DNA from: Novisyntrophococcus fermenticellae
Lineage (GTDB): Bacteria; Bacillota; Clostridia; Lachnospirales; Lachnospiraceae
Length of the DNA: 64,000 nucleotides
Assembly: GCF_018866245.1 (NCBI RefSeq)
Contig: NZ_CP076458.1
Location: forward strand, 124,001-188,000
Direction of reading: 5' to 3'
Part shown: piece after piece, positions 54,347 to 64,000 of the stretch
Position numbering within the stretch: position 1 is the first letter of the stretch
Layout of the letters: each line of letters starts with the position of its first letter
Notes under the pieces: model-generated
Seen by the model: only the letters and a program-made list of their open reading frames with translations
What the model was told of the DNA's origin: nothing
The model's database searches: none
Made by a program: the position numbers and the translations under genes

Positions 54347-54811
54347 TTACTTCTCTGCATCTACTGCTTCAGCTTTCGTCAGAGCTGATTTTACAGCTTC
54401 TAAAAGCAGCATGGAGGTATATTTATTGTCGTCGGAATAGGTGATATTTTCCGTAGATTGAGTCGTATAAATCTGACTTGCGATGTCTTCCAGGGTCGGC
54501 TCCATCAAAGGATACATGGCAGTAGTAACTTCACTTAAGTTTATCAATTCTATAGAATTGATGTGATCCTTATCTACGGTCACCTGTACGTCGAATGAGT
54601 TGCCATTAAGCTCGATGGAAGCCGTATAGATACCTGGCGTATATTGGGTTTCGGTGACTGAAGCCTGGGATGAGGCAGTCTTATCCTGGGATTCCTTACC
54701 GCCAAACATCACAAAAAGCAGGATAATGGCTACAACAGCCAGTAGAAGAAAGATCGCAGTATAGATCACTTCCTTCATATGTAGTACGACAATTTTAGTT
54801 TTTGAACTCAT
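54347..54811 (-). CDS. Small membrane-anchored FMN_bind-like protein
   Basis: 154 residues with one N-terminal helix (AIFLLLAVVAIILLFVMF) and a Ser/Thr-rich linker. The outer domain (YTPGIYTASIELNGNSFDVQV, then TSMLLLEAVKSAL) follows the FMN_bind pattern. In the acceptor block, where flavinylated proteins have SGATxTS, it reads SDDNKYTS, so the Thr acceptor is absent. It may bind FMN non-covalently or have another role. It lies 2.3 kb from the extracellular electron transfer operon, with the GH3 gene between. Confidence 0.6.
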   Translation of the reverse strand: MSSKTKIVVLHMKEVIYTAIFLLLAVVAIILLFVMFGGKESQDKTASSQASVTETQYTPGIYTASIELNGNSFDVQVTVDKDHINSIELINLSEVTTAMYPLMEPTLEDIASQIYTTQSTENITYSDDNKYTSMLLLEAVKSALTKAEAVDAEK

Positions 54812-55024: not shown

Positions 55025-57133
55025 ATGGACAGAAAAGAAGCAAGAAAGCGTGCCAAAGAGCTGGTATCTCAGATGACTTTAGAAGAGAAGGCCAGCCAGT
55101 TGAGATATGATGCACCGGCAATTCAAAGACTTAATGTACCTGCTTACAACTGGTGGAATGAAGCGCTGCATGGTGTTGCAAGAGCAGGGGTTGCTACCAG
55201 CTTTCCCCAGGCAATCGGTATGGGTGCAACCTTTGATCCGGAGCTTTTAAAGGAAGTGGCCGATGCTATCGCAGATGAGGGACGTGCAAAATACAATACC
55301 TATGCGGCACATGAAGACAGGGATATCTATAAAGGGCTGACCTTTTGGTCTCCGAATGTAAATATATTCCGGGACCCGAGATGGGGCAGGGGACATGAAA
55401 CTTATGGGGAGGATCCCTATCTGACCAGCCGTATGGGCGTGGCTTTTGTAGAAGGCCTGCAAGGTGACGGAGAGACGATGAAAGCAGCAGCCTGTGCGAA
55501 ACATTATGCGGTTCATTCCGGGCCGGAGGCAATTCGTCATGAATTTAATGCCGTGGCAACCAAGAAAGATATGGAGGAAACCTATCTGCCGGCGTTTGAG
55601 GCATTGGTAAAGGAAGCACGGGTAGAATCCGTCATGGGAGCTTATAACCGCACCAACGGAGAGCCTTGCTGTGGAAGCAAGACTTTAATCCGGGAAAGAT
55701 TGCGCGGAGCATGGGGGTTCCAGGGGCATTTTGTATCCGATTGCTGGGCAATTGCGGATTTTCACATGCATCATATGGTTACTTCAACCGCCCGGGAATC
55801 TGCGGCCATGGCCCTGAATGCAGGTTGTGACTTGAATTGTGGAAATACTTATCTGCATATTTTAAGTGCATATAAAGAGGGTCTGGTAACAGAAGAACAA
55901 ATTACAGAATCTGCCGTCAGGCTTTTTACCACCCGCTTTCTTCTGGGATTGTTCGACGGCAGTGAATTTGATGAGATCGGGTATGACCGTGTGGAATGTA
56001 AGGAGCATCTGGAACTTGCACATAAAACCGCCTTGGAAAGTATGGTTCTGTTGAAAAATGATGGTATACTGCCTTTGAAGAAAGAGGCTTTAAACGCGAT
56101 TGCCGTCATCGGTCCGAATGCAAACAGCAGAGCCGCGCTGATTGGAAACTATTACGGAACATCATCTGCGTATATTACAGTTCTGGAGGGGATCCAGAGG
56201 TATGTCGGAGAGGAGGTAAGGGTTTATTATTCAGAAGGCTGTGCTCTGTCTAAGTCCAGGACAGAGGGGTTGGCCGGGGAGAATGACCGTCTTTCCGAGG
56301 CTCAGATTGCAGCTGAAAACAGTGATGTTGTGATTCTGTGCCTGGGTTTGGATGAAACCTTAGAGGGGGAGGAAGGGGATGCCGGAAATGCGTATGCATC
56401 GGGAGACAAACAGGATCTTCTACTGCCGGAAACGCAGAGAAAACTGATGCAGACGATTGCTGCAACAGGTAAGCCGGTGATCCTTTGTCTGATGGCCGGA
56501 AGTGATATCGATATGAGCTATGCTGCGGAGCACTTTCATGGTATTCTGGGGTTGTGGTACCCGGGAGCCCGGGGAGGAAAGGCAGCGGCAGAAATCCTTT
56601 TTGGAGATGTATCTCCATCCGGAAAACTTCCTGTTACTTTTTATCAAAGTCTGGAGGAACTGCCTGCGTTCACGGACTATTCCATGGAAGGAAGAACCTA
56701 CCGATATATGAAGGGAAGAGCACAGTATCCGTTCGGATACGGTCTGACTTACAGTGAGGTTCGGGTAATGAAGGCTGACGCAGTAGAAGAAGCGTATGGA
56801 GCAAGTGTGCGGGCCGTGGTGAAGAACTGTGGAAATGTGGAAACAGATGAGGTGGTACAGGTTTACATTAAATGTATGGATTCTGCCCATGCAGTGCCGA
56901 ATCCGCAGCTTTGTGCATTTTGGCGTATACATCTGCTGCCGCAGGAAGAAACAGAGGTTGAACTTCCAATTCCAGAGAGAGCCTTTACTGTGGTGGATGA
57001 CAGCGGAAAGCGCTTTGTGGACGGAAGACAGTTTGAACTTTATACAGGTGTCAGCCAGCCGGATGAACGGAGTTTTGAACTGACGGGATCAAGACCTGTT
57101 CGGACGGAGTATACAAGGAAGTTTGTACGCTAA
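55025..57133 (+). CDS. Glycoside hydrolase family 3 beta-glycosidase
   Basis: 702 residues, no signal peptide. The catalytic domain has FWSPNVNIFRDPRWGRGHE, AKHYAVHSG, MGAYNRTNGEPCCGS and the nucleophile Asp239 in FQGHFVSDCWAI, the form seen in the beta-xylosidase/beta-glucosidase branch. The GH3 C domain (VLLKNDGILPLKK, LIGNYYG) and a fibronectin-like end follow. It should release sugars from imported short oligosaccharides in the cytoplasm. Start follows TGGAGGATTCGT. Its stop codon overlaps that of the convergent eetB gene by 4 bases. Confidence 0.92.
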   Translation: MDRKEARKRAKELVSQMTLEEKASQLRYDAPAIQRLNVPAYNWWNEALHGVARAGVATSFPQAIGMGATFDPELLKEVADAIADEGRAKYNTYAAHEDRDIYKGLTFWSPNVNIFRDPRWGRGHETYGEDPYLTSRMGVAFVEGLQGDGETMKAAACAKHYAVHSGPEAIRHEFNAVATKKDMEETYLPAFEALVKEARVESVMGAYNRTNGEPCCGSKTLIRERLRGAWGFQGHFVSDCWAIADFHMHHMVTSTARESAAMALNAGCDLNCGNTYLHILSAYKEGLVTEEQITESAVRLFTTRFLLGLFDGSEFDEIGYDRVECKEHLELAHKTALESMVLLKNDGILPLKKEALNAIAVIGPNANSRAALIGNYYGTSSAYITVLEGIQRYVGEEVRVYYSEGCALSKSRTEGLAGENDRLSEAQIAAENSDVVILCLGLDETLEGEEGDAGNAYASGDKQDLLLPETQRKLMQTIAATGKPVILCLMAGSDIDMSYAAEHFHGILGLWYPGARGGKAAAEILFGDVSPSGKLPVTFYQSLEELPAFTDYSMEGRTYRYMKGRAQYPFGYGLTYSEVRVMKADAVEEAYGASVRAVVKNCGNVETDEVVQVYIKCMDSAHAVPNPQLCAFWRIHLLPQEETEVELPIPERAFTVVDDSGKRFVDGRQFELYTGVSQPDERSFELTGSRPVRTEYTRKFVR

Positions 57134-57618
57134 TGTCTTTGTAAACTATTTATGATAATGCCGCCTAAAATTCCAATCACTGCCCCTGTAACAAGTCCCG
57201 AGATAATTAAAAATGGAAGGTAGTAGACAAGTGCGCTGCTGTTTACTACCCACATAGCCACGAGAATCTGACCGATGTTGTGTCCGACTCCCCCAATGAT
57301 ACTCACACCTGTTACTGAGAATTTTTTGCATCTGTTTGCGGTTGCCATAAGCAGCCAGCTAAGCAGTCCGCCCCCAAAGCTGAATAGCATGGTAGATAAA
57401 TTCCCGAAGGTGAACCCTACCAGGATCATCCGTACGATGGATAAGGCAAAGGCTTGCTTTGATCCCATCAGAAATAAAGCGGTAACCACAACCAGATTGG
57501 CCAGACCGAGCTTAATTCCGGGAACCGGTACAGGAATCGGGATCAGACTTTCTATATAACTTAGAATAAATGCCAGGGCAATCAGTATGCCATATGTTGC
57601 TACATTTTTTGTTTTCAT
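57130..57618 (-). CDS. eetB: EetB-like Gx transporter family membrane protein
   Basis: 162 residues from ATG 57618 with AGAGGG upstream. Five or so helices (YGILIALAFILSYIESLIPI, VPGIKLGLANLVVVTALFL, LLSWLLMATAN, LVTGAVIGILGGIIINSL) match the family once named heptaprenyl diphosphate synthase component I. In the Listeria electron-transfer locus the protein of this family is EetB, thought to help pass electrons across the membrane. Last gene of the minus-strand operon, 7 bases after eetA. Confidence 0.85.
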   Translation of the reverse strand: MKTKNVATYGILIALAFILSYIESLIPIPVPVPGIKLGLANLVVVTALFLMGSKQAFALSIVRMILVGFTFGNLSTMLFSFGGGLLSWLLMATANRCKKFSVTGVSIIGGVGHNIGQILVAMWVVNSSALVYYLPFLIISGLVTGAVIGILGGIIINSLQRH

Positions 57619-57625
57619 ATACCCT

Positions 57626-58000
57626 CTAGTGGACCATGACATCTACATCACTGTCTTCCCCGCCACGGATTTCTACTGTCACTTTATGGGGCAGGCAGAT
57701 GATGGATTCATGGTCATAGTGAATTGCCCTGTGTTCCACACAAATCTTATCCGGACAGTTTGCCTCTTTCATCCTTACCTTTCCATCCTTGATTTCAAGG
57801 ATATTGTAATCCGCCGTCTTTTCTCCGATGAGCAAAGTTGCATCTTCACTCAGCGGCAGGGTTTTATATATCTTTTTATCAACGGTTACAATAACCTCTC
57901 CACCTTCTTTTTTATTCCATGTCATACATAGTATTGCCACAAGAGCAATGATAAGGATTCCGGCAATAAGTATCCAGTCATTTTTTTTTAGTTTTATCAT
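57626..58000 (-). CDS. eetA: EetA-like NusG domain II membrane protein
   Basis: 124 residues from ATG 58000, whose ATGA overlaps the fmnB stop, so translation is probably coupled. One N-terminal helix (WILIAGILIIALVAILCM) is followed by an outer domain with VIVTVDKKIYKTLPL and NCPDKICVEHRAI...IICLPHKVTVEI, the NusG-II-like fold with a conserved Cys pair. EetA of the Listeria system has this fold. Exact role in electron transfer is not settled. Confidence 0.85.
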   Translation of the reverse strand: MIKLKKNDWILIAGILIIALVAILCMTWNKKEGGEVIVTVDKKIYKTLPLSEDATLLIGEKTADYNILEIKDGKVRMKEANCPDKICVEHRAIHYDHESIICLPHKVTVEIRGGEDSDVDVMVH

Positions 58001-59058
58001 ACATCGCACCATTTTTCAAAACCACTGCTATACTTTGTACTATAATTCGGGAATACCCACAAGGCTTCTACACCGTCCAGTTTTTCAATCAGCTTACTTC
58101 CTTCCTCATATGGCATGTTAAATACTGCCGTAGAAAGGGCATCCGCCATGCCGGAATCTTTACATATAATAGAAACAGAAAGAAAGTATTCGGCAGGCAT
58201 CAATGTTTCCGGGTCAATAATATGATGATACTGTTTTCCATCTACGGTATAATACCGTTCATAGACACCGCTGGTTACCAGTGACTCCCCTGATAAATGC
58301 AGAATATAAAGGGTTTTATCTTCACTGGATAAATCCGGATTTTGAATTCCGACACTCCAGGGAATCTCCTTTCCCTTTTCATCGAACTTGTTTCCGATTG
58401 TTCTTACATTCCCACCCACGGATATCGACCCGTTCGCAAAGCCTGCTTTTTGCAAGGTGACTGCCGTGCGCTCTACCGCATATCCTTTGGCAATGGCACC
58501 CACATCCAGGCTCATCTCGGGATCCTTCAGATAAACCGTGGATGCCTTTTCATCAATAATCATATCGTCTATATTGATGTGAAGGTTGCGTGCTTTTAAT
58601 TCCTCGTAATCAGGAAGCGTAGCGGATTCCGGGTCGCTTTGACCTGCCGTCCGGTGGTCGTGCCATAAGGAAAGCACATCCCCAAAGGCGATATTTACCT
58701 TGCCATCTGTCTTCTTATCCATTTCCCCAGAAAAGGAGAGAAGATCCAGGATTTTCTGATCCACTTTTACCGGCTTTACACCTGCATTGTCGTTAATCGT
58801 CTTTATATTATTCACGCCATCATAATCGTTATAGATGTCAAAAAGCTGATTATATACTTCCAGCTCATCATAGGCCATCTGGCTGTATCTTGTAAACACA
58901 TCCTTGTTTTCTGTATATCCCACAATTACGCTTACCGTGTCAAAAAGCTCAAGAAAGCTGGCGTCGTAACGCTTTTTTGTATGTCCCGAGCAAGCCGGAA
59001 GTGATGATAAGATTGTGAATCCTACTAAAATTGCTGCTATTGTTTTACTTAACTTCAT
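57997..59058 (-). CDS. fmnB: FmnB, FAD:protein FMN transferase (ApbE family) lipoprotein
   Basis: 353 residues from ATG 59058, preceded by AGGGAATAGGG. Signal peptide with lipobox SLPACSG. The ApbE domain has LFDTVSVIVGY, the VDVGAIAKGYAVER-like stretch (read here as LDVGAIAKGYAVER), SVGGNVRTIG and the metal site DALSTAVFNM. It attaches FMN from FAD to Thr or Ser of outer-face proteins, most likely the PplA-like protein encoded 22 bases upstream. Overlaps eetA by 4 bases. Confidence 0.95.
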   Translation of the reverse strand: MKLSKTIAAILVGFTILSSLPACSGHTKKRYDASFLELFDTVSVIVGYTENKDVFTRYSQMAYDELEVYNQLFDIYNDYDGVNNIKTINDNAGVKPVKVDQKILDLLSFSGEMDKKTDGKVNIAFGDVLSLWHDHRTAGQSDPESATLPDYEELKARNLHINIDDMIIDEKASTVYLKDPEMSLDVGAIAKGYAVERTAVTLQKAGFANGSISVGGNVRTIGNKFDEKGKEIPWSVGIQNPDLSSEDKTLYILHLSGESLVTSGVYERYYTVDGKQYHHIIDPETLMPAEYFLSVSIICKDSGMADALSTAVFNMPYEEGSKLIEKLDGVEALWVFPNYSTKYSSGFEKWCDV

Positions 59059-59080
59059 CCCTATTCCCTGTATAGTTGGA

Positions 59081-60169
59081 TTATTTTGCGTTTGCTGCAG
59101 CCTTTTCAACTACGGATATAAAAGGTGATACATGCACTGTTACAGAAGAAATTAAATCCGCATCTGCAGCAAGTCCTTCACTGTCCACGGAAATTCCGCC
59201 GACTTCTGCTGCTGTTTTTCCCGTTACATAAGCAGAAAACGCATCCGCCTCTTCATACCACTCTTTGCCGATAGAAGAAGCTTTCTTCATCCCATATGCA
59301 TTGCCAAGCTCCTGCTTTGTTTCTACAGCGGCTTTCAAATCAGAAGTGATTTTTCCTGTTGTATCAAAGTTTACATCACCTTGGGACGCGTCTACATAGC
59401 AGCTTGTTATCTTGCTGTCTGCGTCCGTGGTTACAACAGAATACATGGAATAAGCCTGTGCAAGGCCCTTTTCCTCAGCGGTTGCATCTTTTGAGCTGGA
59501 CATCTGTGTATCAATGCCCAAACCAATCGTATCTGTGCCTTTTGCACCTAAATCCTTCGCATTGGCAACAGCTTTTTCAACTGCGGAGACAAAGTCACCG
59601 ATGTGGATGGTTACAGAGGAGGTCAGATCCTCTTCCGTAGGGACGCCCTCGTCATTTACAGCGATTCCTTTGATCTCATCTACTGTTTTTCCTATCGTAT
59701 ATTCAGCAAAGGCATCCGCCTGCTCATTCCACTCCTTACCGATAGAAGAAGACTTTCCCAGTCCGTATTCAGAACCAAGTTCCTGCTTGGATTTAAAAGT
59801 GGTCGAAGCATCTGTTATAAGCTTGCCTTCTGCGGAAAAGTTGATTTTTGTCTGGGCAGAGTCAATTTTGCAATCCAGAATTTTACCATTCGCATCAACC
59901 AGCACAGCCGCTGCCGTGGAGTCTATCTGTGCCAGGCCATCCTCTGCTCCCGCAGGCGCTGAATTGGAAATAGATGTACTTACGGAAAGTCCGGTTTTCG
60001 CTGCATCAGAAGCCGGTTCAGAAGTTGAAGATTCGGGTTCCGCCGATTCAGATGTTTCTGATTTTGCATTTGAGGTTTCCGGCTTTGATGATGCATTTCC
60101 CCCTCCGCAAGCGGTGAGTGTTCCCAGTGTCAAAGTGCTGCAGATTAATAAAGCTGCTATCTTTTTCAT
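59081..60169 (-). CDS. pplA: PplA-like flavinylated lipoprotein, two domain repeats
   Basis: 362 residues. Lipobox LTACGG (Cys21), an acidic Ser/Glu linker to about residue 60, then two repeats of about 145 residues (60-205 and 216-362). Each has a KQELG.YG...SSIGKEW block, a GKT...I..I..D block and a C-terminal DLxSSVTxHxxxFxxxVEKA block. By alignment with the flavinylation motif SGAT, Thr187 and Thr344 are the likely FMN acceptors (inference). In Listeria the FMN-bearing lipoprotein PplA passes electrons to outside acceptors. GGAGG precedes the ATG. Confidence 0.85.
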   Translation of the reverse strand: MKKIAALLICSTLTLGTLTACGGGNASSKPETSNAKSETSESAEPESSTSEPASDAAKTGLSVSTSISNSAPAGAEDGLAQIDSTAAAVLVDANGKILDCKIDSAQTKINFSAEGKLITDASTTFKSKQELGSEYGLGKSSSIGKEWNEQADAFAEYTIGKTVDEIKGIAVNDEGVPTEEDLTSSVTIHIGDFVSAVEKAVANAKDLGAKGTDTIGLGIDTQMSSSKDATAEEKGLAQAYSMYSVVTTDADSKITSCYVDASQGDVNFDTTGKITSDLKAAVETKQELGNAYGMKKASSIGKEWYEEADAFSAYVTGKTAAEVGGISVDSEGLAADADLISSVTVHVSPFISVVEKAAANAK

Positions 60170-60248
60170 ATGATACCTCCATTTTATAGAGCCGTCAAGG
60201 CGGCTGAATTTTATTTCAATCCGGTTATCCGGATGAATAACGAGAAAA

Positions 60249-61157
60249 TCAGATTCTGTTCAGAACCACGGCCAGAAATACGGCCAGGGTGTCAGCACCC
60301 ATAATTAGAATAAAGTTCATGATACTGAGATTAAAGGTCGTACCCTTATCCTGCTTCCTAAAAAAGGCTCGAATATTCTTCTGCACCGGTAGGATGGTAA
60401 GAAGAGAGAGCAGCATTACCGGCGGAAGAATCTGAAACAGGACCATCAGAACTGTGGAAACATAAGTCATGTAATAAAGCCCCGCAAACAGAAAAAGAGA
60501 TTTTTTCCCGATATAATAAGGGAGTGTATGTCTCCTTACTGCAATATCTTTTTCTAAATCACAGATATTATTCGCCAACATAATGTTGGCTGTTACTGCG
60601 AAAGGTGTGATAGAAAAAAGAAGCAGAGTAAGTACCGGGAGAATCTGAATGGACAGAGAGACTGTTTTCAGACTCAAACGATAAGTTAAGAAGGTTCCCT
60701 CCGGTGAATTAATATACATCAGGAGGAAGGGAATTACTACTCCATAAAAAAATCCGGATATCACTTCTCCAAGAGGCATTCTGGAAATCGGAAGAGGACC
60801 GTAGGTATAGCATACTCCGAAAAGGAAGCAGATTCCGCCGGTAACCAGAACAACCAAATCCGTCAGAAAGGCAAGATAAAGCCCGAAAGCAGCGCTGATT
60901 CCAAACAGAACATAGATAATCAAAAGTGCCTGCCTCCGTCCAAAGGCAAGAATCTGATCATTCTCTTTTGTGTCAATATAGTTGTTAATTGCAGTAGTAG
61001 TCAGGTCAAAGAAAAACATTCCTGCAAAAAAAACCAGTGTTTTGCCCCAGTGCATTTCCTGTCCCTGATATAAAAGAAAGCCCATAGTTAGAAGGAATGT
61101 CAATGTACTTGTAATTTTTGTCTTTATCTCAATATAATCAAAGAATTTTGCAGGCAA
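60249..61157 (-). CDS. dmkA: DmkA-like prenyltransferase (UbiA family)
   Basis: About 302 residues, taking TTG 61157 (GAGAGGGG 9 bases upstream); TTG 61184 is an alternative. UbiA fold with around eight helices. The first Asp motif reads NNYIDTKENDQ and the second NNICDLEKDIAVRRHTLP. In the electron-transfer locus DmkA joins 1,4-dihydroxy-2-naphthoate (DHNA) to a polyprenyl diphosphate to make demethylmenaquinone. No DHNA-synthesis gene is in the window. It lies between dmkB and pplA with short gaps. Confidence 0.88.
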   Translation of the reverse strand: MPAKFFDYIEIKTKITSTLTFLLTMGFLLYQGQEMHWGKTLVFFAGMFFFDLTTTAINNYIDTKENDQILAFGRRQALLIIYVLFGISAAFGLYLAFLTDLVVLVTGGICFLFGVCYTYGPLPISRMPLGEVISGFFYGVVIPFLLMYINSPEGTFLTYRLSLKTVSLSIQILPVLTLLLFSITPFAVTANIMLANNICDLEKDIAVRRHTLPYYIGKKSLFLFAGLYYMTYVSTVLMVLFQILPPVMLLSLLTILPVQKNIRAFFRKQDKGTTFNLSIMNFILIMGADTLAVFLAVVLNRI

Positions 61158-61173
61158 GCTTTTTATCCCCTCT

Positions 61174-62130
61174 CTATATTTCAACTTTCAATCCAGTTGC
61201 TTTTTTAACAATTGCAGTAATTTTTAAACGCTTTTCTTCTGTTACCTCCAGCTTTTCGATCGTACGTTCCGCTTTCCTATAATAGCGTCTAATCATCTGC
61301 TTTGCGTAATCCAGGCCGCCCGACGCTTCAACCGCCTGATTGATTGTATCTCTTTCAACATTTCCGGTGGAGGCCTTCTGCTTAAAATCAGGAAGCTTCT
61401 CCAAGGCATGGATGAAAGGAAGGGTAATTACACCCTGTTCGTAATCCGACTGAACAGGTTTTTTTGCCTGCTCTATAGTCTCATCAAAATCCAGGCAGTC
61501 ATCTTGTATCTGGAAAATCAAACCGGCATAGTTTCCGATTTTTCTATATTTTTTGACCTCTGCCGGAGAAGATCCGCCTAAAATCGCACCTGCATGGAAA
61601 GAAGCTTCGAAGAGGGCAGCTGTCTTTCCGGATATGATTTTTATATATTCGTAAACACTTAAATTCAAGTTGTAGTTATTTACGTTCTGTAACAGTTCTC
61701 CGAGACACAGCCTGCTGATATAATCTGGTATATCAAGTTTTACGTAGTTCTCCCGGTCCGGAATAGCCGAAGCCATCTTTAATGCAAGGCTTAAGAGGTA
61801 ATCTCCGCAAATGACTGCTGTACGCTTTCCATACTTTTTCTGAAGTGTTTCTGCCCCCCGCCGTAAGTCTGAATTATCAATCACATCATCATGAACGAGC
61901 GAGGCCAGATGAATGGTTTCGATTGCTGCCGCTGCGTATGCTGCTCCGGAAGGGATCAGTCCTTCCGGATCTTGTGCGCAAATCAGTACGGAAACCGCAC
62001 GAATCATCTTACCCTGAGAGGTGGACAGATGCGTCAGATATTCATTGATGATGCGGGGAGATTTGGTAAGAGCCTTGTGTATCTCGGTCTTTACAAGTGT
62101 GAAGGCTTCTTCGTATGTTAATTTCTCCAT
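61174..62130 (-). CDS. dmkB: DmkB-like polyprenyl synthetase
   Basis: 318 residues from ATG 62130 (AGGTGAT upstream). Trans-isoprenyl diphosphate synthase with first Asp-rich motif LVHDDVIDNSD and second FQIQDDCLDFDE, and RRGAETLQKKYG. It makes the polyprenyl chain for the quinone. Starts 19 bases after ndh2 and runs up to dmkA with little or no gap, which supports one transcript. Confidence 0.92.
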   Translation of the reverse strand: MEKLTYEEAFTLVKTEIHKALTKSPRIINEYLTHLSTSQGKMIRAVSVLICAQDPEGLIPSGAAYAAAAIETIHLASLVHDDVIDNSDLRRGAETLQKKYGKRTAVICGDYLLSLALKMASAIPDRENYVKLDIPDYISRLCLGELLQNVNNYNLNLSVYEYIKIISGKTAALFEASFHAGAILGGSSPAEVKKYRKIGNYAGLIFQIQDDCLDFDETIEQAKKPVQSDYEQGVITLPFIHALEKLPDFKQKASTGNVERDTINQAVEASGGLDYAKQMIRRYYRKAERTIEKLEVTEEKRLKITAIVKKATGLKVEI

Positions 62131-62149
62131 GTTATCACCTATAACTTTT

Positions 62150-64000
62150 TTAGTCATGATACAGATACCACTTCCGGATCAGGGGCAGCTTTTTCCACCA
62201 TTTTTTCAGAACAGGCATCACATAGTAATCAAGACCCAGTGTTCTTCCGGCACCGATTAATACTGCAATTCCTGCAAAAACCATCCAGAAGGTACCCAGA
62301 TATAAGCCTGTGGTGCATACAAACATAAACTGTAAAACGAGGGATACCGCTGCCGCCGGTGAGGTAAAGAGTCCGCCCATCAGTGCGAGCCCGATTAAGA
62401 TTTCTGCGATTACAATCAGAATCTGCATAAACATCTGCACACCGTTATTAGGCAGAATCACCTTATCTACAAACCAGTTTATAAGAGGAACATCCAGCTT
62501 AAATGCAAAATCACTTAAGGTTGAAGCAGCAAGGTCAGCCCCGCTGACAAATATCATCTTGAAAAGCCCCAGGATGTTCCAGTTAAAAATCACGTGTCCG
62601 ACGGAGGCGGCGGCATCGGCGGCACCGGTTGCCGAACTGACAACATCTGCTGCGGAACTACTTGCAGCAGCGGTCGTTGCTGAGCTTATCGAGTCGGTGA
62701 CCGCTTTCCCGGCACCGGAGTTCAAAATACTGTTATACCAGGAGACTGCACCGCCGAAAAAGGCCTGTAGTTTTGGTTCGTTCAACCAGCCCTCTACAAT
62801 CTTCATGATTCCTTCAAACAACCATACGGCGCCCAGCCAGAATCGCAGAGGAACAAGAAGAAAACTGGGCGTTCTGTTGGAAAAATGTCCGCCTACAAAG
62901 CTTCTGCAGTTGCGGATGGTAAAAAATTCATGTTTGACATAGCTAAATATTTTATTCCAGCCCAATACCTGGATGAAATAAATAATATTAATAAAGTGTT
63001 TTGCAAACATAGCCAGGAAGGACGGTAAACGGAAGAAATGTCCCGGGAGACCCACATGAGCGACTCCGTAACGGCCTCCGATACAGACCATGACACCGTG
63101 GAAGGCCGGTTTGTATTCCTCCGGTTCACCTTTCCCCGTCAATGCACAGACAATATTGTGAGCGGCAGTTCCGGCACTTTGCTCACAGTTTTCGACCATC
63201 TGGGGAACGGATACTTCCTGCCCGTCCGGAACATAATACATGTTATCGCCGATTACATATACGGATTCATCTTTTGTAGAACGAAGATAGTTATCCACCG
63301 GGATACGTCCGCCTCTTTGCTTTTCCAAAGCATCAGCGGCAGCAGCAGCCACATTGCTGCTCTGGATTCCAGCTCCCCAGATTACAGTTCCCATGGTTCT
63401 GGTTTCATTCTTTCCGTCACAGGCTAACTCAATCGTATCTTCCGTAATACGGGCTACAGATGTACCCATACGAAGTTCAACCCCCATCTTCTGCAGCCTT
63501 TTTGCAACCTTTGCAGACAGCTTTTCCGGAAGATTCGGAATTGGCCTGCTTAAGGCATCCACATTTATAAGGGTCACTTCATCTCTGTTTACTTCATATT
63601 TTTCACAGAGAATCGGTACATATTCCGCAAGTTCTCCGATCATCTCAACGCCGGTAAAGCCTGCGCCTATTACGTAAAAGGTAAGCATTTTTCTGCGTTT
63701 TCCGGTGTCTTTTTCTGCGGAAGCCTTCCGGAATGTATTTAAAATATGATCTTTTAATACAATAGCGTCTTCATAGGACCAAAGTTTGTAAGTATACTCC
63801 TCCGCCCCAGGAATTCCGTAAAAAGTTGGTCTGGAGCCGGAAGCCAGCACCAGATAATCATATGCGTAAGAGGCGGCTTCGCCCTTTACTGTCTTTGCCT
63901 CAAAATCTACTTCGGTTACTGTATCCAGCTTCACAGCGACATCCCTGCCGGCAAATACTTTCTTTAAGCTGATTTTAATGCTGTCTTCATCCACCCTGCC
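62150..64000 (-). CDS. ndh2: Ndh2, type II NADH dehydrogenase with C-terminal membrane domain (5' part outside window)
   Basis: 616 codons are visible; the N terminus and first FAD motif lie past the right edge. Seen are the YLVLASGSRPTF strand, the NADH-binding YVIGAGFTGVEMIGEL, TVIWGAGIQSS, and VYVIGDNM, the flavin-binding motif. After about residue 370 comes a membrane region of about 240 residues with DoxX-like helices. It has an Ala/Ser/Thr-rich loop (about residues 435-490) between helices. Ndh2 of the Listeria locus also has such a membrane extension. It moves electrons from NADH to demethylmenaquinone. First visible gene of the operon. Confidence 0.92.
   Translation of the reverse strand, partial: GRVDEDSIKISLKKVFAGRDVAVKLDTVTEVDFEAKTVKGEAASYAYDYLVLASGSRPTFYGIPGAEEYTYKLWSYEDAIVLKDHILNTFRKASAEKDTGKRRKMLTFYVIGAGFTGVEMIGELAEYVPILCEKYEVNRDEVTLINVDALSRPIPNLPEKLSAKVAKRLQKMGVELRMGTSVARITEDTIELACDGKNETRTMGTVIWGAGIQSSNVAAAAADALEKQRGGRIPVDNYLRSTKDESVYVIGDNMYYVPDGQEVSVPQMVENCEQSAGTAAHNIVCALTGKGEPEEYKPAFHGVMVCIGGRYGVAHVGLPGHFFRLPSFLAMFAKHFINIIYFIQVLGWNKIFSYVKHEFFTIRNCRSFVGGHFSNRTPSFLLVPLRFWLGAVWLFEGIMKIVEGWLNEPKLQAFFGGAVSWYNSILNSGAGKAVTDSISSATTAAASSSAADVVSSATGAADAAASVGHVIFNWNILGLFKMIFVSGADLAASTLSDFAFKLDVPLINWFVDKVILPNNGVQMFMQILIVIAEILIGLALMGGLFTSPAAAVSLVLQFMFVCTTGLYLGTFWMVFAGIAVLIGAGRTLGLDYYVMPVLKKWWKKLPLIRKWYLYHD

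Follow-up and report, generated by a model that had tools for sequence, protein, structure and literature searches.

A clostridial operon for flavin-based extracellular electron transfer that seems to be under Rex control and probably shares its flavin-loading parts with Rnf

Introduction

Flavin-based extracellular electron transfer (EET), by which a fermenting bacterium can hand excess electrons to external acceptors, is encoded in Listeria monocytogenes by a gene cluster for which Light 2018 is said to be the source. A gene set of this kind closes the stretch of DNA analyzed here, 64,000 nucleotides of Novisyntrophococcus fermenticellae (G000:C1:124001-188000, hereafter the window), from a genome that is a single contig of 3.42 Mb and 98.23% complete. 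In our reading, the window carries a clostridial EET operon that would draw on imported 1,4-dihydroxy-2-naphthoate (DHNA), load flavins through parts common to the Rnf complex, and answer to Rex and to an HxlR-family regulator; judged from the sequence, we put the probability of this whole proposal at roughly 0.8.

Sources are cited below for the passages that treat each point. The Listeria cluster comprises eight genes, including fmnA, which encodes the T component of an energy-coupling factor (ECF) system (PMC9973259), and Listeria makes DHNA (PMC9094743). In Lactiplantibacillus plantarum, DHNA from outside allows EET (PMC10746273, PMC8837199). In Clostridia, eetB adjoins rnf in 572 genomes (PMC9973259), and the consensus of the Rex operator is TTGTTAANNNNTTAACAA (PMC8457756). 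Flavin-based EET has been defined operationally by an NADH dehydrogenase with a transmembrane helix within a flavinylation-associated (apbE) cluster (PMC8238504), and PplA is classed among the FMN-bind proteins, which split into two structural subtypes (PMC10979944).

Results

Seven genes of a Listeria-type EET system

Seven open reading frames (ORFs), close-set or overlapping on the minus strand, occupy positions 57130-64000 in the transcript order ndh2-dmkB-dmkA-pplA-fmnB-eetA-eetB (Table 1). Six of the seven matched a Pfam model above its cut-off, the exception being the PplA-like ORF. The ORFs and these six matches confirm the place and order of the genes given in the original prediction, and the assignment to flavin-based EET stands: the gene set is the known Listeria-type system in a clostridial form. 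The ndh2 gene is cut by the window end; the full ORF has 671 amino acids and starts at window coordinate 64165, with a PF07992 score of 121.3 bits for the in-window part and 142.7 bits for the whole ORF. Four 19-residue spans of Ndh2 with a mean hydropathy of at least 1.6 all lie beyond residue 380. The operational definition cited above thus finds both its elements here: a dehydrogenase with hydrophobic spans, recognized by PF07992 in place of the KEGG family K03885 that PMC8238504 names, and, in the same operon, apbE.

The best NCBIfam match of DmkA was NF004752 (238.8 bits, under its cut-off of 289), and dmkA is the only UbiA match in the genome. FmnB, for which an ATG at 59058 is the likelier start, had as its best PDB match 7esa (139.9 bits), which is the Listeria FmnB (PMC8906456). 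In the right flank, a divergent HxlR-family regulator gene (PF01638, 86.6 bits) lies upstream of ndh2, which is therefore the first gene of this operon and not part of another. The ribU or ECF genes for which a look upstream had been advised were not seen in this flank, which shows hxlR instead (a genome-wide RibU search was not made); four ECF-T genes (PF02361) lie elsewhere in the genome. Beyond hxlR, two long ORFs resemble AddB and AddA by eye. In locus L003, no RNA family reached the gathering threshold.

Table 1. Genes of the EET operon, in transcript order, with their positions in the window
Gene	Product	Position	Strand	Evidence
ndh2	Type-II NADH dehydrogenase, C-terminal part with hydrophobic segments	62150..64000 in window	-	PF07992
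dmkB	Polyprenyl diphosphate synthase	61174..62157	-	PF00348, 198.3 bits; DDxxD at residues 90 and 219
dmkA	UbiA-type prenyltransferase, DHNA polyprenyltransferase-like	60249..61184	-	PF01040, 71.9 bits
pplA-like	Lipoprotein with two repeats	59081..60169	-	Lipobox, repeats, S-S-V-T motifs
fmnB	ApbE-type FAD:protein FMN transferase	57997..59109	-	PF02424, 235.9 bits
eetA	NusG domain II membrane-anchored protein	57626..58012	-	PF07009, 109.8 bits
eetB	ECF-S-like FAD exporter subunit	57130..57642	-	PF07456, 149.7 bits

Among the 80 named loci, which are the best of 525 confirmed stretches with a PplA relative, the exact order of the window together with the divergent hxlR recurs in six (L006-L010 and L012), which is more than chance. 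The order ndh2-dmkB-dmkA-eetA-eetB-pplA-fmnB was found in 20 of the 80 and ndh2-dmkB-dmkA-pplA-fmnB, with neither eetA nor eetB found, in eight; the remainder have other or partial orders, many of them at contig ends. No Listeria record is among these best 80, in which the closest PplA proteins come from a Ruminococcus-labelled metagenome-assembled genome (MAG; 74% identity), a Clostridiales MAG (72%) and Muricomes intestini (71%). By a count of the matches listed, 16 of 200 genomes of the same family, that of the window included, have a PplA match of at least 195 bits; a tally of 177 of the 200 consists mostly of short matches, up to about 33 bits, at the lipoprotein signal peptide. The relatives belong to Lachnospiraceae-type and other Clostridia, and their record titles name digesters and soil besides gut, which does not bear out the suggestion of a strict gut anaerobe. 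Five further loci (L030, L038, L050, L052 and L083) carry PplA-type genes with no fmnB or ndh2 found in the flanks examined.

The PplA-like lipoprotein

The N-terminus of the PplA-like protein is hydrophobic and carries a lipobox-like LTAC at residue 18. The protein also has two repeats, which share 50% identity across 147 residues and each close with D-L-x-S-S-V-T. The predicted flavinylation sites are Thr187 and Thr344. A homology search in which 8000 candidates were scored gave 2754 at E≤0.001, of which the best 120 were listed, and we aligned the window protein with 25 of these (n=26). S342, V343 and T344 were invariant in all 26 sequences, and the first site was T in 23 and S in three. 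The single sequence matched no chain in a PDB search at E≤10; the 26-sequence profile gave one marginal match, 2kzx (E 0.0077), in which the S-S-V-T of PplA faces I-S-G-A-T. From its sequence, the PplA-like protein is likely to be flavinylated at two sites.

A Rex-type operator and a divergent HxlR regulator

The genome encodes Rex (NF003990, 319.3 bits against a cut-off of 233), and a Rex-type site, TCGTTAAATAATTAACAA, lies before ndh2 in the 279-base gap that separates this gene from hxlR (window coordinate 64235-64252, outside the window itself). This site agrees with the clostridial consensus at 13 of 14 positions and is predicted to bind Rex. We surveyed the DNA upstream of 40 ndh2 genes, taking at most 300 bases from each, for the Rex pattern and for four control motifs. 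The Rex pattern reached p≤0.05 by shuffling in 19 of the 40 upstreams with 200 shuffles and in 20 with 100 shuffles, and the control motifs in 0, 1, 1 and 0. Agreement at 12 or more of the 14 positions was seen in 20 upstreams for Rex, and 12/14 matches in 1, 1, 1 and 0 for the controls. All 20 good sites sit 52-120 bases before the ndh2 start. Since the loci are related, the 40 upstreams are not independent trials.

Five sites in the genome differ from the Rex consensus at one position. They lie before the EET operon, an iron-type alcohol dehydrogenase gene, a PadR gene followed by an Old Yellow Enzyme-type gene, a D-lactate-dehydrogenase-like gene and a zinc-type alcohol dehydrogenase gene; by their predicted functions, these are the kind of target that Rex has in Clostridia. 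The EET operon seems to be controlled by the cell's NADH sensor Rex, and the Rex-type operator would give indirect support to the reading that the system reoxidizes NADH. Our literature search turned up no account of EET genes as targets of Rex, and no paper joining Rex, NADH dehydrogenase and ApbE in Clostridia. The relevant passages of PMC9094743, PMC13185627 and PMC13367045 mention no action of Rex on EET genes, and the Listeria Rex paper (PMC8389512), its supplements apart, contains none of the terms lmo2637, lmo2638, ndh2, extracellular electron and pplA.

The stretch from the Rex-type site to hxlR also holds two dyads, near GTATCC-TAAA-GGATAC and AGGTACTTTAAAGTACCT. Among the 40 upstreams, hxlR is present at seven; the first dyad matches at 13 or more of 16 positions in six of these and in 0 of the other 33, and the second at 15 or more of 18 in five and in 0 of 33. 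Because the strings were read from the same, related loci, these counts are a description and not a test. By itself the first dyad is unspecific, with five places of at least 12/16 on one strand of 73.5 kb. The HxlR protein keeps a CPM cysteine in all seven loci, and its best PDB matches are 7kd3 (94.1 bits) and HxlR 7bze (80.3 bits), YodB 5hs7 (43.2 bits) ranking lower. YodB senses quinones. This resemblance, the cysteine and the two conserved dyads would fit an operon that chiefly detoxifies or buffers quinones and oxidants, in which HxlR senses, Ndh2 reduces and external acceptors serve as a secondary outlet. However, YodB is among the weaker of these matches and hxlR stands at only a minority of the upstreams; PplA, FmnB, EetA and EetB would be superfluous to such a role, and the Rex-type site fits NADH overflow. 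We consider quinone detoxification highly improbable as the chief function, and retain an EET operon under Rex and HxlR control. A literature search found no paper on HxlR with EET and flavin.

Quinone supply

Neither MenB nor MqnA/D had a match in the genome (MenC, MenE and MenF were not searched), and the best MenD match, at 69.3 bits, fell short of its cut-off of 244.2. Since none of these is over its cut-off, the quinone head group of this organism is probably supplied from outside. The plain reading, as argued for L. plantarum, is that DmkA would prenylate imported DHNA. Among the 16 PplA-bearing genomes of the family, MenB was above cut-off in none and MenD in one (G038); in another, G115, MenD reached 183 bits, under the cut-off. 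The MqnA/D search covered the genome of the window. The MenD-family protein of G038 (locus L103, 288.6 bits) has neighbors that by eye resemble UDP-galactopyranose mutase and a sugar-type oxidoreductase. Because of these neighbors, and because G038 has no MenB match, we rejected this protein as evidence of quinone synthesis.

Flavin loading and its connection to Rnf

The genome holds one ApbE, which is fmnB, and one PF07456 match, which is eetB, both in the EET locus. It also holds rnf genes (L001), about 1.36 Mb away from the EET operon, among which RnfD, RnfE and RnfA were named by eye and RnfG by PF04205; flavinylation-like motifs are present in RnfD (S-S-A-T) and RnfG (S-G-A-T). Since the single ApbE and single EetB stand alongside rnf genes, one flavin-loading module, FmnB with EetB, probably serves both EET and Rnf.

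A 121-amino-acid PF04205/FMN_bind lipoprotein with D-A-V-S-S-A-T is encoded at L002 (G000:C1:2771697-2771912), adjoining what seems to be an iron-type ATP-binding cassette transporter, and may be a flavinylated accessory protein for iron uptake. Should RnfD, RnfG and this lipoprotein be flavinylated, their loading must also fall to FmnB. A membrane-anchored protein of 154 amino acids in the window (54347-54811, minus strand) aligns with the L002 lipoprotein (26% identity, E 3e-5); it has lost the S-G-A-T-like flavinylation motif and has no Pfam match above cut-off.

At four of 97 loci (L071, L080, L082 and L097), pplA-fmnB lies directly beside rnf genes, and in L051 (Anaerocolumna sp. MB42-C2) ndh2-dmkB-dmkA-pplA-fmnB, rnf genes and eetB form one cluster. 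Such neighborhoods would be expected if Rnf fed PplA besides, or in place of, Ndh2 and a membrane quinone, so that EET would run from ferredoxin or NADH via Rnf and need no quinone. The single ApbE and EetB for both systems and the lack of recognized DHNA genes (MenB, MenD and MqnA/D) agree with this, as does the lack of a UbiA match in eight of the 16 PplA-bearing family genomes, although several of these eight are incomplete (70-97%). However, adjacency to rnf may merely reflect the common ApbE, the linkage of eetB to rnf being already published (PMC9973259), and in the window pplA is grouped with ndh2, dmkB and dmkA and stands far from rnf. A supply of PplA by Rnf is in our judgment unlikely, and Ndh2 with a membrane quinone remains the preferred source of electrons in the window. 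A literature search found no paper tying PplA to Rnf in Flavonifractor. The eight genomes without UbiA, together with the absence of ndh2 from 13 of 49 PplA loci (counting those whose flanks span 6 kb or more before pplA and 3 kb or more behind it), suggest that PplA-type proteins seem to work also without the DmkA/Ndh2 quinone route.

Discussion

From the gene identities and order, the single ApbE and EetB, the lack of a recognized MenB, MenD or MqnA/D, the Rex gene and the conserved operator-like sites, all read from the sequence, we infer a scheme in which every biochemical step, the uptake of DHNA, the common supply to Rnf and the regulation are conditional. Ndh2 would oxidize cytosolic NADH and reduce a carrier of the demethylmenaquinone type. 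DmkA and DmkB would build this carrier from an isoprenoid chain and a head group of the DHNA type, the latter taken up by the cell. Electrons would exit via PplA, a lipoprotein loaded with flavin mononucleotide (FMN) at two Thr residues by FmnB. The flavin adenine dinucleotide (FAD) that FmnB uses would be exported by EetB together with an ECF module whose genes lie elsewhere, and this FmnB and EetB would supply the Rnf complex as well. Rex, sensing the NADH/NAD+ ratio, and the divergent HxlR would control the promoter, and the operon would open as NADH accumulates.

Several results weigh against this proposal. The locus had been called complete, which overstates the case: fmnA is neither among the seven genes nor in the right flank, and the enzymes of DHNA synthesis that we searched for were not recognized, MenC, MenE and MenF being outside that search. 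Where profile searches were proposed as a check on the EET families, EetA and EetB passed, but no Pfam or NCBIfam model scored above cut-off on the PplA-like ORF, and the PplA profile did not match a profile built from only three FMN_bind-type proteins. The other 20 of the 40 ndh2 upstreams of relatives have no good Rex site. Across the genome, the Rex pattern with up to two mismatches occurs at 32 places, compared with 40 for the reversed control, and is not enriched; with up to three mismatches, the 19.5-kb locus has two matches, which is no excess, since 72 of 200 shuffles reach two. Lastly, dmkA or dmkB mutants of L. plantarum still performed EET (PMC10746273), so DmkA and DmkB may not be essential.

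Of the readings that remain, a link between Rnf and PplA is the boldest. In its widest form, which we think unlikely, EET and Rnf would be one clostridial electron-export network with a common ApbE and EetB: Rex would open the EET operon at high NADH and PplA would be fed by both Rnf and Ndh2, so that outside acceptors could be used without the cell's own quinone synthesis, and better with DHNA from neighbors. The parts of our proposal most worth testing are control by Rex, dependence on DHNA from outside, and the common ApbE and EetB. They raise the questions of whether Rex controls clostridial EET, whether DHNA from neighbors is needed, and whether loss of ApbE or EetB disables Rnf and EET together. 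The answers would show whether fermenting anaerobes have, in outside acceptors, a regulated overflow valve for NADH, and whether cross-feeding of quinones helps to shape that valve.

Comparison with known systems

Like the EET system of Listeria monocytogenes, the window encodes Ndh2, DmkA, DmkB, a PplA-like protein, FmnB, EetA and EetB; FmnB loads the Listeria PplA at two sites, and two sites are predicted in the PplA-like protein here. The order of the genes differs from that in Listeria. Unlike the Listeria system, the cluster has no fmnA and the genome no recognizable DHNA synthesis; it has a divergent hxlR, a Rex-type operator and, in the same genome, an Rnf that would use the same ApbE. 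As in L. plantarum, ndh2, pplA and dmkA are present and the remaining quinone synthesis is missing (PMC10746273, PMC8837199); unlike L. plantarum, this organism belongs among the clostridial relatives and has Rnf, and its use of DHNA is predicted.

The locus also resembles the supply of Rnf by ApbE and EetB in Clostridia, where eetB is linked with rnf and EetB is the FAD exporter for ApbE (PMC9973259). In contrast to that linkage, the only ApbE and EetB of this genome are encoded by the EET operon at a distance from rnf, and their sharing with Rnf would follow from their copy number. The operator matches the consensus of the clostridial Rex regulon, and in both cases the best sites adjoin NAD(H)-linked fermentation genes (PMC8457756); an EET operon as a target is unlike that regulon as described in the source. 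We found no paper on EET or flavinylation in Lachnospiraceae, nor on DHNA with EET in gut Lachnospiraceae. What seems new is Rex control, the reliance on outside quinone building blocks and the flavin-loading parts common to Rnf. The system is of a known kind, and it appears to depart from the model organisms in how it is controlled and supplied.

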